Shown here one piece after another: positions 1 to 6,052 of a stretch of 32,675 nt of DNA. A program made the position numbers and the translations under genes. Source of the DNA: a virus. A model generated the notes under the pieces. It saw nothing but the letters and a program-made list of their open reading frames with translations. It was not told where the DNA came from and did no database searches. Each line of letters opens with the position of its first letter. Positions within the stretch are counted from its first letter, which is position 1. Location: positions 1 through 32,675 of the IMG/VR virus record IMGVR_UViG_3300027770_002233; one strand, 5' to 3'.

Positions 1-924
1 AGTTTTGGGATAAGACAAATGGCGGCTCTTGGCAAGGCGTTCAACATCTTGGGCAGCGTAGATGTTCAACCCACCCAATGACTTCTCAATGGTTTCAATT
101 CGAGCACTGAGCCCGTCATCAATTGTTTGCAACTTGTCAAGATCTACCCTTACCCCATGCCGCCGCATCTGCAACAGCAACGGGATCAAAGCAGTCTCTA
201 AGTTAAACAGTTCAAGCAAGTCATCGCGTTGCAAGATTTCTTTCTGTGCATTCCAAATCCGAATGGGCAATGAGGCATCACCTTCTGCATATGGGCCCAC
301 AAGCACAGGTGGGCAGCGGTAGATGTTGGCTGCCTGTTTCCTGTCTGCATTGCCCCCATACGCCCGGCTTGACCAGTCGTACAAAGCACTCTCAAGTTTT
401 GTCTCACCCAGGTACTTCTTTGCCAACGCATTGAGTGAGTAGCTGAGTGCGTTTTCATCAATGAGGGGCTCCGCCAACTGAACATCACAAATGGGTCCCG
501 CCACATGCACATCTAAGGTGGACAACCAACCCAGGTCGTACTGGGAGTGGGCAAAGATGTAGGAACGGGTGTTGTCAGACAAGACATCTTGCAAAAAGTT
601 GATAACCTGTTCCTTGTTCTGATTCTCACCCATGGTGTGAGCAATGGGGTAGTACCAAGCGGCGTCAATAGTTGCAATGGAGATGCCTGCCACATTGCCA
701 TGCCCCGTTGCCCACCCCGGACCCAAGTCAAGCAGTTTGGGGTCAAAGGTTTCTGTGTCCACACCCAATTGAAGCACACCATCTAAATTCGGAAATTCTC
801 GCAGTTGCCAACCCGTGTCCGGTATGGCAGGCATGACGCGATTAGTTTGTGGCTTCACGCCGCCTTTGACGGGTTTGACGACCTCAATATCTTCCCAGAA
901 CAACCCAACTGAATCATGTCTCAT
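1..924 (-). CDS. Family A DNA polymerase, N-terminal part (cut by window edge)
   Basis: This is the phage replicative DNA polymerase of the Pol I family; only the first 308 codons are here and the frame is still open at base 1. The visible part is the DEDDy-type 3'-5' proofreading exonuclease. Exo I is seen as VDTETFD near residue 64, Exo II as FAHSQYDLGWL near residue 130, and Exo III as YAEGD near residue 222. The LFNLETALIPLLLQMRRHGV stretch is typical of the linker into the polymerase domain, which lies beyond the window. The ATG at 922-924 overlaps the stop of the sliding-clamp gene (ATGA), so the two are translationally coupled. There is no 5' nuclease domain before the exonuclease. Family assignment rests on the exonuclease motifs, since the catalytic palm is not visible. 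Confidence 0.88.
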   Translation of the reverse strand, partial: MRHDSVGLFWEDIEVVKPVKGGVKPQTNRVMPAIPDTGWQLREFPNLDGVLQLGVDTETFDPKLLDLGPGWATGHGNVAGISIATIDAAWYYPIAHTMGENQNKEQVINFLQDVLSDNTRSYIFAHSQYDLGWLSTLDVHVAGPICDVQLAEPLIDENALSYSLNALAKKYLGETKLESALYDWSSRAYGGNADRKQAANIYRCPPVLVGPYAEGDASLPIRIWNAQKEILQRDDLLELFNLETALIPLLLQMRRHGVRVDLDKLQTIDDGLSARIETIEKSLGGLNIYAAQDVERLAKSRHLSYPKT

Positions 925-1892: not shown

Positions 1893-2831
1893 TTATAACT
1901 CAAAAAGTGAATCTTGGAACATGTGGTTAGGCTCTGGTAAAGAGTTGTGCCAAGACACAAACTCAAGCCCCGACATCAATCGTCGTGCGTTTTGATCAGT
2001 CACGATTTGTTCAAGAGTCAAACCGTAACCTGCTGCTCTGTCAATGATTGCTTGTGCTGTGCCTGGTGGCATGTTGCAGATGTGCATTCCAGCGTTGTGT
2101 CTGTCTGGGCTTTGGTCGGAGGTTGCAATAGCAGTCAGGCGTCCGTTGTCGTTAAAGTTCACCCGACCCATCACAGCAGTGTAGAGCCAAGTGGCAGAAT
2201 CTACTGAATACCACGGCACTTGTTTCAACATAGTGCCACCAGTGGCTGCCAAGCCGTGACACTTCTTGCCAGGCAACTTACGGTGTACATAGTTAGACCA
2301 ATTGACACGTGTCCATTCAGGCAAATCGTTCCTGGGTGAGACGCAGATGTAGTCAGCCATTTCTGCTACCTCAAACATCCGCTCCTCTGCCTCATTCTGA
2401 TGGAACACCGGCAGCACAATATCCCCAAACTCTTCCTTCAATATTTTGAAGTTCTCATCTGACGTCTTGATTGCTTGTGCTATTTCCTCTGGCCCCGCAG
2501 TCACCCCGGGAGACCCCGGGATCACATCCAAGTTGATGAGCCACACCTGCACATGGCTAGGGATGAGAGACATGATGTTCTTGTACACCGTAATCAAGTG
2601 CTTCAAATCCACCTTCTTACCCTTTGACCAAGCGGTGAAGGCGCCACTATCCAACATCATTTCTTGAATAGCAGCGCCGTCTATCTTGCACAGGTCTGCC
2701 CAAATCTTCGCCTCCTTCACATAAGCATCATGGCAGGAGCAGAGGCGATGGGTGAACGCCCTTGCAAGACGTTGCTTCATCTCATCTGAGCCACCGGTGG
2801 TGCCGGAGAAGAAAAGTTTGACCTTGGACAT
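1893..2831 (-). CDS. dpdA: DpdA-like DNA 7-deazaguanine transglycosylase
   Basis: A 312-residue TGT-like protein of the phage DpdA type, expected to exchange guanine in DNA for a 7-deazaguanine base (preQ0 or preQ1). Visible features: MMLDSGAFTAWSKG (Asp61), matching the DSG signature of tRNA-guanine transglycosylases; VWLINLDVIPG (Asp102); LPVFHQNE and YICVSPRND, typical of TIM-barrel strands; and SVDSATW (Asp211), a candidate nucleophile region. The last residues are QDSLFEL, which fits the beta-clamp-binding pattern Q-x-[SD]-L-F. The gene follows QueF by 7 nt and GGAG lies about 10 nt before its ATG. Its place at the end of a complete preQ0/preQ1 gene set is strong contextual support. Which base is inserted cannot be read from the sequence. 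Confidence 0.85.
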   Translation of the reverse strand: MSKVKLFFSGTTGGSDEMKQRLARAFTHRLCSCHDAYVKEAKIWADLCKIDGAAIQEMMLDSGAFTAWSKGKKVDLKHLITVYKNIMSLIPSHVQVWLINLDVIPGSPGVTAGPEEIAQAIKTSDENFKILKEEFGDIVLPVFHQNEAEERMFEVAEMADYICVSPRNDLPEWTRVNWSNYVHRKLPGKKCHGLAATGGTMLKQVPWYSVDSATWLYTAVMGRVNFNDNGRLTAIATSDQSPDRHNAGMHICNMPPGTAQAIIDRAAGYGLTLEQIVTDQNARRLMSGLEFVSWHNSLPEPNHMFQDSLFEL

Positions 2832-2838
2832 CTTTTAC

Positions 2839-3540
2839 TTACTCCGCATTGTGCCAGTATTCAAAGGTAGGCCAGAAGGGAATGCCACCCCGTGGTGTAA
2901 ACTGCCCCTCAACCCTCAAATACTCTGGTTGCAACAAATCAACCAGCGCCTGTGCAATGTGAGTCACACAGGCCTCATGGAATTCACCTGTCTGACGAAA
3001 CGAACCTAAGTACAATTTCCATGCCTTGGACTCCACACACCATTCACGTGGCTTATATTCCACCACAATGGTTGCAAAATCGGGTTGCCCAGTGAGGGGA
3101 CAGAGCGATGTGAATTCAGGCGAAACAATTTTGATACTTGTCTCTGCATGTGCGCCTGCACGGGAGACGGTAAGTTTCATTGGGTTGGGGAAGCGTTCAA
3201 GCAAAGAGGCATCAGCGCCTTCATACTTGTACCCTGTGTCCTTACCCAAAGATTGCAGATGGTCAGCTTTTGAGAGCTGAATTGCACTGTGTGTTGCCAT
3301 GGGTTCAAAGTCCTTAAAAAGTGGAATATCAATAGGTCCAGGTTGCGCCTGCACCTCCTCTTTATGCCAAATCCACAAACAGCTTTTGCTTGCTTTGTAT
3401 TTTTTGACATATCCTTTCTCACCCAGTGCCCAAAGTGACTTGGACACAAGATCTGGTGACAATTGCAGTTTTGCTGCTATGTCTTGAGTGGTTAGCCAGC
3501 CGTGGGGTCCGTGGGCTAAAAACCAACGGATGCGATTCAT
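2839..3540 (-). CDS. queF: Winged helix-QueF fusion: NADPH-dependent preQ0 reductase
   Basis: A 233-residue protein. Residues about 91-233 are a unimodular QueF, which reduces the nitrile of preQ0 to the aminomethyl of preQ1. Seen: LGKDTGYKY, then FTSLCPLTGQPDF with catalytic Cys147 and Asp154, the signature ESKAWKLYLGSFR starting at Glu170, and FHE at 187-189. Residues 1-60 form a winged-helix-like domain (WLTTQDIAAKLQLSPDLVSK, then LWALGEKGYVKKY) not normally part of QueF. The ATG at 3538-3540 overlaps the FolE stop as ATGA, so I chose it. An internal ATG at 3298-3300 has AAGGA 10 nt upstream and would give a 153-residue stand-alone QueF of normal length. An upstream extension to 3669 exists but runs through FolE and is rejected. 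Confidence 0.88.
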   Translation of the reverse strand: MNRIRWFLAHGPHGWLTTQDIAAKLQLSPDLVSKSLWALGEKGYVKKYKASKSCLWIWHKEEVQAQPGPIDIPLFKDFEPMATHSAIQLSKADHLQSLGKDTGYKYEGADASLLERFPNPMKLTVSRAGAHAETSIKIVSPEFTSLCPLTGQPDFATIVVEYKPREWCVESKAWKLYLGSFRQTGEFHEACVTHIAQALVDLLQPEYLRVEGQFTPRGGIPFWPTFEYWHNAE

Positions 3541-4094
3541 CGACGAACCAGGTCTAACAATTCTTCTTTGGCGGATCTGTCCCATTCGAAGAGCCCTTTC
3601 ATTGCTGAGGTTACAGTGGAGGCACCCTGACGTTGGATGCCGCGAGATTCCATGCACATGTGGCGGCACTCAATGATGACCCCAACCGCTTTGGGTTGGA
3701 GTGCATCTTGAATAGCATTTGCCACTTGACTCGTAAGGCGCTCCTGCACCTGTAGGCGTCTAGCAAACACATCCACTACACGCGATAGTTTGGAGAGTCC
3801 CACAATCTTGCCATCAGGGATGTAGGCGACATGGGCAACACCAAAGAATGGTGCTAGGTGGTGCTCACAATGACTGTAGACAGGGATATCTTTGACCAGG
3901 ATGATCTGGTTGTAATCCTCCGCTCCGTCATTAAAAGTTTTGAGAATCTCCGCTGGGTCCTCCTTGTACCCACCCGCCCAATGCTGCCAAGCTTTAACAA
4001 CACGGATAGGAGTGTCAATCAAACCACCCCTCTCTGGGTCCTCACCAATGACTGTCTTCAACAGGTCGGCAACAACAGTTAACTTATCAGGCAT
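3537..4094 (-). CDS. folE: GTP cyclohydrolase I
   Basis: A 185-residue GTP cyclohydrolase I, which opens GTP to 7,8-dihydroneopterin triphosphate, the first step to preQ0 and folate. Motifs: [13 protein letters not shown] (zinc ligands Cys76 and the following His), [19 protein letters not shown] and LQVQERLT, which are the family signatures, and [11 protein letters not shown] containing the second zinc cysteine (Cys147). Length is close to the bacterial enzyme core. The start at ATG 4092-4094 overlaps the QueC stop by 8 nt; the longer frame opening at 4115 would need a larger overlap and has no motif support. It sits in the queE-queD-queC-folE-queF-dpdA run, so it most likely feeds deazaguanine rather than folate synthesis. 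Confidence 0.96.
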
Positions 4095-4881
4095 GACGCA
4101 ACTCCTTGATCTCATCTATCAACAAGTTGTAGAAGTCCTCGTTCTGCAAATAGTTGTTGGTGCCTGGCAACTGCATCAACCCATCCATCCAAGCGCGGAT
4201 GACCAAGGGGTCAGGCAACTGTGCTTCCTCAAACCCCTTTGCCCTCAACACATTGGCATGGTTCATGTCCGTTGGTGGGTACTTGCCGTCATAAGATGTG
4301 TGGGTGTAGGCAAGGGCAGCGTAGCCCCCTGCCTCCTTCATCACCCTGATGCTCTCCGCCTTTGTGCTGCCAATCAACGGGGCGATAATGTGCAGGTGGC
4401 TAATGCCCAAGGACTCGTTAGCCATTTGCTCGTACGAAAATCTAAAATCGTTAGTGCAATCGGGGTAGTTCGCGTTGTCAGCTTGGCATATGCCAGTAAC
4501 AAGGGTGAAGCAATCAGCAACAATAGCGCGATTGGCAGCAACGGTAAAGAAGAGTGTATTTCGCATCGGTACGAAGGTGAGTTCCACCCGGTTGCCAATA
4601 ATTTTGTCCATGGTTTCGTAGTCATCATATTGCTCCAAAAGTTGAGAAGAATCGGTCAGTGGTGAACGCCCTTTGAGGATGGGACCGAGTTCCACTACCT
4701 CATGGGATGCACAGCCAGCGATTCGGGCAACCTTTCGTGCTGCCTCTATCTCCAAGCTGTGGCGTTGGTTGTAGTCAAAGGTGACAGCATGCACTTCCTT
4801 GTAATTTTGCTTTGCAAGGAATAAGCAGGTTGTCGAATCTTGTCCGCCAGACAAGATGACCATCGCTTTTTGTTTCAACAT
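4087..4881 (-). CDS. queC: 7-cyano-7-deazaguanine (preQ0) synthase
   Basis: A 264-residue QueC, the ATP-dependent enzyme turning 7-carboxy-7-deazaguanine into preQ0. The PP-loop ATP motif [12 protein letters not shown] is at residues 8-19. [16 protein letters not shown] and [14 protein letters not shown] match conserved QueC blocks, and [15 protein letters not shown] is the C-terminal block. In bacterial QueC the segment just before that block holds four zinc-binding cysteines. Here it reads [19 protein letters not shown] (about 193-211) with no cysteine, so the zinc site appears lost or replaced. The start is ATG 4879-4881, 2 nt after the QueD stop; the longer frame to 4998 lies inside queD. 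The gene overlaps folE by 8 nt. Confidence 0.94.
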
Positions 4882-4883
4882 CT

Positions 4884-5351
4884 TTAGTTTCCTTTTCCTA
4901 AGTAAATTGCTGAATTCGCACCGTGTTCTCTCACCTCTGCACTCACCACCCGGCAACGTGGTTTGTACGAATCCGCATACTCCGCCTCCCTTAACCATTC
5001 ACAGGCCAAGCCGTAGGCAAACTCTGCAAACTTCTCGCACCCAATCTCATCCATGATGACCAAGTCTGCGATGCCTCTCTTTTGTGCCTCAATAAACCAA
5101 TCCATGTTGGGATCATCATCAGCAACCAATGTCCGGTGGTCAAAGTAATTTTCAAGCTTGGCACGCAACTTTTTCAACCCACCAAAGTCAACCACCCAAT
5201 GGTTCTCATCCAACTCTGTTGCCTCAAACTCAAACTTAATGGACAAAGCGTAGCCATGCAGTTTGTTGCAATGACTCTTTGCCCGCCATTGACGGAAACA
5301 AGCGCTGAGTCCTATTTCATGCCCGTAGGTTTTTGTAGATCTGAAAGTCAC
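4884..5351 (-). CDS. queD: 6-carboxy-tetrahydropterin synthase
   Basis: A 155-residue member of the QueD/PTPS family, which makes 6-carboxy-5,6,7,8-tetrahydropterin from dihydroneopterin triphosphate. Seen: [19 protein letters not shown] (about 26-44), where Cys28 lines up with the catalytic cysteine and His32 with a zinc ligand; [16 protein letters not shown]; and a C-terminal [10 protein letters not shown] with the conserved Glu. The usual HGH is HGY here, so one canonical zinc ligand is a tyrosine. I chose the GTG at 5349-5351 because it overlaps the QueE stop as GTGA; the longer frame to 5408 would overlap QueE by 61 nt. The [11 protein letters not shown] opening fits a QueD-like variant family. 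It supplies the substrate for QueE. Confidence 0.88.
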
Positions 5352-6052
5352 GGTAGTCCAATCATTTTGTGAAGTTGTAAAGTTAGTCGGTGCCCATGGG
5401 TCATGCAAAGGGCAGCCGCGTATTCGGTGTTCTCTTTCGTCTTGTCCCAGTCAACAGTTCTGTCTTCATGGTACTCCATCATGGGTTGCAACCAGATGGT
5501 GCCTTTCCTTGCCCTGTAGATCATCAACTCTTTGTAATCTTGTGTGGACATGTTGGGCATACCATCTGCCTCACTGCATTCACCTTTTCGCACAATGTAC
5601 TTCCAGTCAAAGCAGTAACGAACAAAGCCAGAATGGACAGTGGCGGTTTTGGGAGAACAGACAATGGTCACAAGTTTCCCCTCCACCAAATCCTCCATCC
5701 CATCTTGCCACAAAGTGCCCGCTGTCTCAATCTGAATCTTCACATTGTTTGCTGCTACCAACACATTGCAAAGGTCAAGAAGGTTTTGACGGAAGGGCTC
5801 ACCACCTGTGATAACCACAAGATCGCACTTGTAGGCGGCGCACGCCTCAGCAATTTCCTGCGCTGTCATGTAGGTAGTAGAGCTCTCAAAATCGGTATCA
5901 CAGAAGTGGCACCGGAGGTTGCAACCACCCAGGCGAACAAACACCGCTGGCATTCCCGCCAATGGTCCCTCTCCCTGAATGGTGTAGAAGATTTCTTGCA
6001 CCCAGAAGGTGTCTTTAATCTCCCTTTTCATAATCTTATTCTTCCCGAACAT
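5348..6052 (-). CDS. queE: 7-carboxy-7-deazaguanine synthase, radical SAM
   Basis: A 234-residue radical SAM enzyme that contracts 6-carboxytetrahydropterin to 7-carboxy-7-deazaguanine. Seen: FYTIQGEGPLAGMPAVFVR, typical of QueE; the Fe-S motif C-x3-C-x2-C as GGCNLRCHFCDTD (Cys44, Cys48, Cys51); the SAM-binding VVITGGEPF (GGEP about 83-86); and IQIETAGT. A C-terminal block WLQPMMEYHED is also QueE-like. The start at 6050-6052 has AAAGGA 7 nt upstream and overlaps the preceding small gene by 17 nt. ATG 6029-6031 with GGGAAG upstream is a good alternative and would remove seven residues. The stop overlaps the GTG of queD, so synthesis of the two enzymes is coupled. Confidence 0.94.
   Translation of the reverse strand: MFGKNKIMKREIKDTFWVQEIFYTIQGEGPLAGMPAVFVRLGGCNLRCHFCDTDFESSTTYMTAQEIAEACAAYKCDLVVITGGEPFRQNLLDLCNVLVAANNVKIQIETAGTLWQDGMEDLVEGKLVTIVCSPKTATVHSGFVRYCFDWKYIVRKGECSEADGMPNMSTQDYKELMIYRARKGTIWLQPMMEYHEDRTVDWDKTKENTEYAAALCMTHGHRLTLQLHKMIGLP

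Follow-up and report, generated by a model that had tools for sequence, protein, structure and literature searches.

Gene content of the locus

The window, by which we mean the whole 32,675-nucleotide stretch of the IMG/VR virus record IMGVR_UViG_3300027770_002233 analyzed here, carries a dpdA gene with a clamp and a polymerase gene downstream and a 7-deazaguanine gene set, comprising genes for QueF-like, FolE, QueC, QueD and radical SAM proteins, upstream (Table 1).

Table 1. Position, strand and basis of assignment of the features in the window.
Feature	Position	Strand	Basis
N-terminal part of family-A DNA polymerase, truncated at the window edge	1..924	-	PF01612 2.6e-10; PHROG 17 6.2e-27
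Polymerase N-terminal motif HDSVGLFWED, possible second clamp-binding peptide	889..918	-	family motif; function inferred
Phage beta-type sliding clamp, 322 aa	921..1889	-	PHROG 947 E=1.6e-48, 'DNA polymerase processivity factor'
dpdA, 7-deazaguanine DNA transglycosylase (TGT-like), 312 aa	1893..2831	-	PHROG 887 E=7.5e-41
Full tail QDSLFEL, DpdA residues 306-312	1896..1916	-	inside sole low-confidence stretch of DpdA model
QDSLF pentapeptide, DpdA residues 306-310, putative clamp-binding motif	1902..1916	-	QxxLF consensus match, conserved logo
QueF-like protein	2839..3669	-	PF14489 4.4e-28
FolE, GTP cyclohydrolase I	3537..4115	-	PF01227 2.1e-70
QueC	4087..4998	-	PF06508 1.5e-46
QueD	4884..5408	-	PF01242 6.4e-15
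QueE (radical SAM)	5348..6052	-	PF04055 4.7e-12; QueE by gene context

The PHROG family that DpdA matches is annotated as queuine tRNA-ribosyltransferase, and among the top Foldseek hits of the protein TGT QTRT1/2 gave the best TM (0.54-0.59, E about 1e-3); a profile search of PDB sequences with DpdA found no TGT. A Pfam match to MazG (0.0089) lay below the cut-off and was discarded as noise. The protein combines phage DpdA/TGT homology with a 7-deazaguanine gene cluster and in both respects belongs to the 9g-type DpdAs. Insertion of 7-deazaguanine into DNA is established for the DpdA family (PMC6884629), and from this membership the same activity is predicted for the DpdA of the window phage. 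The QueF-like protein displays a weak winged-helix (MarR/ArsR) similarity in its N-terminal part, with MarR_2 below cut-off; if real, such a winged-helix/QueF-like fusion would be unusual.

As originally predicted, dpdA is followed by a sliding-clamp gene, whose start lies 3 nt beyond the dpdA stop codon and which matches PHROG 947, and then by a gene for a family-A polymerase. The DnaN-like fold emerges from the comparison of the clamp family profile with bacterial DnaN structures (5.5e-19) and from the modelled clamp of a relative (L143), for which Foldseek retrieved DnaN (E=3e-20, probability 1.00, TM about 0.7); the window clamp itself is assigned by its PHROG match and by hhalign against E. 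coli beta (95.6% probability). On these grounds, the family belongs to the true beta-type clamps. With regard to the binding pocket of E. coli beta, which we take to be lined by P242, T172 and the VMPMR region, the phage clamps keep a proline at the P242 equivalent in 66 of 67 rows, a TN motif at the T172 position and, as the counterpart of VMPMR, a hydrophobic [IV][VI]GxR strand at the C-terminus; other pocket positions differ from E. coli beta, and the alignment is uncertain in the pocket region.

The adjoining polymerase begins with MRHDSVGLFWED in the window. Its N-terminus follows a near-invariant pattern, RxD[AS][ILV]G[LMF]FW[EQ]D, that is present in 95 of 102 related polymerases and is succeeded by a K/P-rich linker. 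This peptide may be the means by which the polymerase itself hooks onto the clamp, and its core is similar to VGLFDL, the DpdA tail of three contigs (L124, L125 and L127).

A conserved, flexible tail at the C-terminus of DpdA

The reading frame of DpdA ends with NHMFQDSLFEL, residues Q306-F310 coinciding exactly with the predicted nucleotides, and DpdA is the only one of the 30 genes in the window to encode a C-terminal QxxLF. The pentapeptide QDSLF conforms to Q-x-[S/D]-L-F and to the more general QxxLF. When the window DpdA was modelled with AlphaFold2 (mean pLDDT of 92.9), disorder was confined to the last ~12 residues (pLDDT about 50): The block 301-310 scores 55 and residues 311-312 score 45, which places the peptide in a flexible, accessible terminal segment. 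A tail that is conserved yet unpacked in the model is typical of a short linear motif.

Close relatives retain the tail almost unchanged: Eleven of ~98% identity share QDSLFEL exactly, and two of 67-68% identity have QDSLFDL. For a broader view, DpdAs were sampled from annotated phages and IMG/VR contigs, yielding a clamp-encoding set of 112 proteins at 80% non-redundancy. A Q-x-[E/G/S/D]-L-F-like peptide lies within the last 14 residues of 105 of them, and in the aligned tails leucine and phenylalanine are each found in 101/105. At position -4 from the motif phenylalanine, glutamine is the commonest residue (50/105), with valine and isoleucine next, while position -2 is occupied by Glu, Gly, Ser or Asp in 86/105 tails. 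The strict form QxxLF within the last 14 residues was found in 39 of 74 DpdA clusters (70% identity) vs 4 of 2110 background ORFs (0.19%), the background being other ORFs, at least 180 aa long, that lie in the same loci; the resulting p of about 1e-58 is indicative only, since the sets contain related sequences.

Conservation in homologues, on which the original prediction had hinged, is borne out: No other feature of the DpdA C-terminus is as well conserved as the tail in homologues that are mostly 22-46% identical to the window's protein, and F310 is kept in at least 90% of 40 aligned DpdAs, most of them in this identity range. Motif-bearing DpdAs span gamma-, beta- and alphaproteobacterial, cyanobacterial and streptococcal phages, with the tails RLQDLFDE in 9g, RVMELF in CAjan, RIQELF in NP1, DQPGLF in VpKK5, DQPELF in Me-ZS1, DQMGLF in S0112, EQQGLFV in BcepGomr, RQRRLF in Dp-1 and QQYLFGGL in Pan1. 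Judged by these comparisons, conservation of the tail across relatives goes far beyond chance. Many tails read [VI]QELF, the glutamine standing at position 1 in only about half, and tails of this type could bind weakly.

A scan of genome contigs for the window's DpdA type found no relatives, a scan of viral contigs with the DpdA of Cellulophaga phage phiSM gave no matches, and the PADLOC DpdA profile matched weakly and only the NP1-type DpdA. An alignment pooling all DpdA types (A2) was dropped as a query for the contig scan, being too diverse.

The tail tracks the phage clamp

The original prediction had further asked whether the tail co-occurs with a phage clamp, and among the sampled DpdAs it does. 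At the level of 60%-identity representatives, the motif is present in 36 of 39 clamp-encoding DpdAs; two further DpdAs (L145 and L189) have the motif and no clamp within 6 kb, but a clamp is encoded elsewhere. Conversely, no match to PHROG 947 was found in the records of Mufasa8, its relative L217, Typha, L219 (paired with Typha), Salmonella 7-11 and K392, L217 and L219 being fragments, and the DpdAs of all six lack the QxxLF tail, with K392 (ending QMELI) as a borderline case. These clampless DpdAs number fewer than ten, and several sit on long branches. In a tree of 45 DpdAs, the clampless pairs Mufasa8/L217 and Typha/L219 are nested with starred support in sets that have both clamp and motif, and a third clampless pair stands apart, the tree having long branches and an arbitrary root. 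The motif was likely lost together with the clamp at least twice independently, as read from this topology.

Three exceptions are found on the clamp-encoding side: phiSM encodes a clamp and a short DpdA without a tail, the DpdA of L138 ends with NFGFI, and the tail of the ART DpdA, QMELLG, is degenerate. In phiSM, the CxxCxxCC-domain (YkgJ-like) protein adjoining the tail-less DpdA (L030:4940-5593, minus strand) ends with DNQVNLF, which has the form of a canonical clamp motif; the protein is 99-100% identical in seven Cellulophaga records, and its Pan1 homologue has no QVNLF tail while the Pan1 DpdA has one. The QVNLF of the phiSM protein may have taken over the clamp hook.

Two other C-termini were observed in the sampled contigs. 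A QueC (L144:1203-1970, plus strand) ends with IQLSLFNEEN, a canonical clamp-binding motif found in this one contig only, and a small ORF of 92 aa (L145:9411-9689, plus strand) ends with the canonical-looking ESTQIDLFA.

Which partner the co-occurrence points to has to be weighed against the host. QxxLF is the bacterial host consensus, and the phage clamp, being homologous to DnaN, has a pocket with similar elements, so the tail might bind the host beta clamp instead of, or besides, the phage clamp. The host clamp is, however, open to every phage, and the lack of the motif in DpdAs of clampless phages argues against it as the partner; moreover, the phages carry their own polymerase and clamp in a cassette with dpdA. 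We regard the host clamp as the main rival partner and as an unlikely one.

Alternatively, the terminal Leu-Phe could belong to the fold or dimer interface of DpdA itself, for which its high conservation and that of an aromatic residue at position -8 from the motif phenylalanine (Phe in 66/105 tails) would speak. Apart from this aromatic, the ~20 positions ahead of the motif are mostly divergent and of low information, and the residues after the phenylalanine are variable. The tail is also unordered in the model of one DpdA copy, though the alignment showed its conservation, and clampless homologues manage without it; a structural role within DpdA is accordingly quite improbable.

A third reading, in which conservation stems from the DNA or RNA (a ribosome-binding site or overlap with the clamp-gene start) or from a C-terminal degradation tag, could draw on the frequent adjacency or overlap of dpdA and clamp gene and on the 77/105 tails that end exactly at the phenylalanine, but it is largely refuted, with scarcely any probability left to it, because all six leucine and both phenylalanine codons are used among the 105 tails, 28/105 continue for 1-7 residues, and the motif is kept where dpdA and the clamp gene are set apart by another gene or by 2-3 kb (Pan1, R26L and ART) or another gene or kilobases follow dpdA (CAjan, S0112 and HD01). 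This codon and position variability indicates selection on the peptide rather than on a ribosome site or an exact C-terminus, and by this sequence evidence the DpdA tail is a protein-level short linear motif.

Proposed tethering of DpdA to the phage clamp

Its identification as a clamp-binding motif of the QxxLF class is well supported by conservation and by linkage to the clamp, and this part of the original prediction stood. The other part, in which the transglycosylase rides on the clamp and couples base exchange to newly made DNA, is retained as a proposal: Physical binding, the choice of clamp and the coupling to replication are the parts of the tether model that we infer. DpdA would carry the C-terminal motif on its flexible tail, and the leucine and phenylalanine would occupy the hydrophobic cleft formed where domains 2 and 3 of the phage beta-type clamp meet, with the glutamine, where present, reaching an adjoining subsite. 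The clamp would be loaded for the adjacent family-A polymerase, DpdA would be carried behind the fork, and there it would swap G for the 7-deazaguanine supplied by FolE/QueDEC/QueF on freshly made DNA. We assign a probability of roughly 0.78 to DpdA being tethered to the phage clamp and exchanging guanines on newly replicated DNA.

An AlphaFold2 model of tail, linker and clamp is neutral in this respect. It was built for L143, in which the dpdA tail and the clamp lie in one frame, with the intervening stops read as Gly. The motif remained below a pLDDT of 50 and the clamp was above 90; as the alignment had no depth over the tail and strands formed in part of the artificial linker, the model neither supports nor refutes docking.

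A more far-reaching and tentative idea, which we consider rather doubtful, is that one docking code on the phage clamp might serve DpdA, the family-A polymerase and sometimes pathway proteins, giving a modification-competent replisome. Candidates among the pathway proteins are the YkgJ-like protein of phiSM (...QVNLF) and the QueC of L144 (...QLSLF). If true, 7-deazaguanine supply and base exchange would be physically coupled to synthesis.

Comparison with known clamp-binding proteins

The clamp-binding motif of E. coli Pol II is QLGLF. The DpdA tail falls into the same pentapeptide class as QLSLF at the C-terminus of PolC and QMGLF of DnaE, and is likewise C-terminal on a flexible tail; unlike in the bacterial cases, the carrier is a DNA-base transglycosylase and the expected partner a phage clamp that shares only about 17-19% identity with bacterial DnaN. 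The bacterial consensus is QL[S/D]LF or QxxLF; DnaE3 polymerases have the variant xxxLF (PMC12309361).

The closest precedent we found is the alpha-glucosyltransferase of phage T4, which has been described as binding gp45 (Sommer 2004, as cited in PMC13216743), an interaction confirmed by pull-down in 2026 (PMC13216743). As proposed here for DpdA, it is a phage DNA-hypermodification enzyme on the phage's own clamp, for which replication-coupled modification has been proposed. The two systems differ in that the T4 enzyme belongs to another family and transfers glucosyl onto hmC instead of exchanging a base, and in that gp45 is a T4-type trimeric clamp while the window clamp is of the beta type. 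In T4, the alpha/beta ratio follows mostly from expression, and the interaction with gp45 is not its main determinant (PMC13216743); by analogy, the physiological weight of clamp tethering may be small.

The phage 9g-type DpdA (Hutinet 2019, PMC6884629) represents the same enzyme family and gene cluster as in the window. The DpdAs of 9g, CAjan and Dp-1 carry the tail; that work covers base insertion, and searching its text for C-termini gave no result. HVTV-1 with its PCNA box was considered as a comparison and dropped, as it has no DpdA (PMC6884629). In open-access papers, we found no description of DpdA together with a sliding clamp, replisome or processivity factor; a description elsewhere is possible. 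A clamp-tethered DNA-modifying enzyme is already known from T4 alpha-glucosyltransferase and gp45, and a motif of this kind on DpdA appears to be new.

Implications

The finding bears on how DpdA finds phage DNA and on when it acts, be it before, during or after replication. If the tether is true, replication-coupled base exchange would become a testable general rule across the sampled phage groups, the preferential modification of phage DNA would be explained, and deletion of the tail would provide a simple separation-of-function mutant in the well-studied E. coli phages CAjan or 9g.
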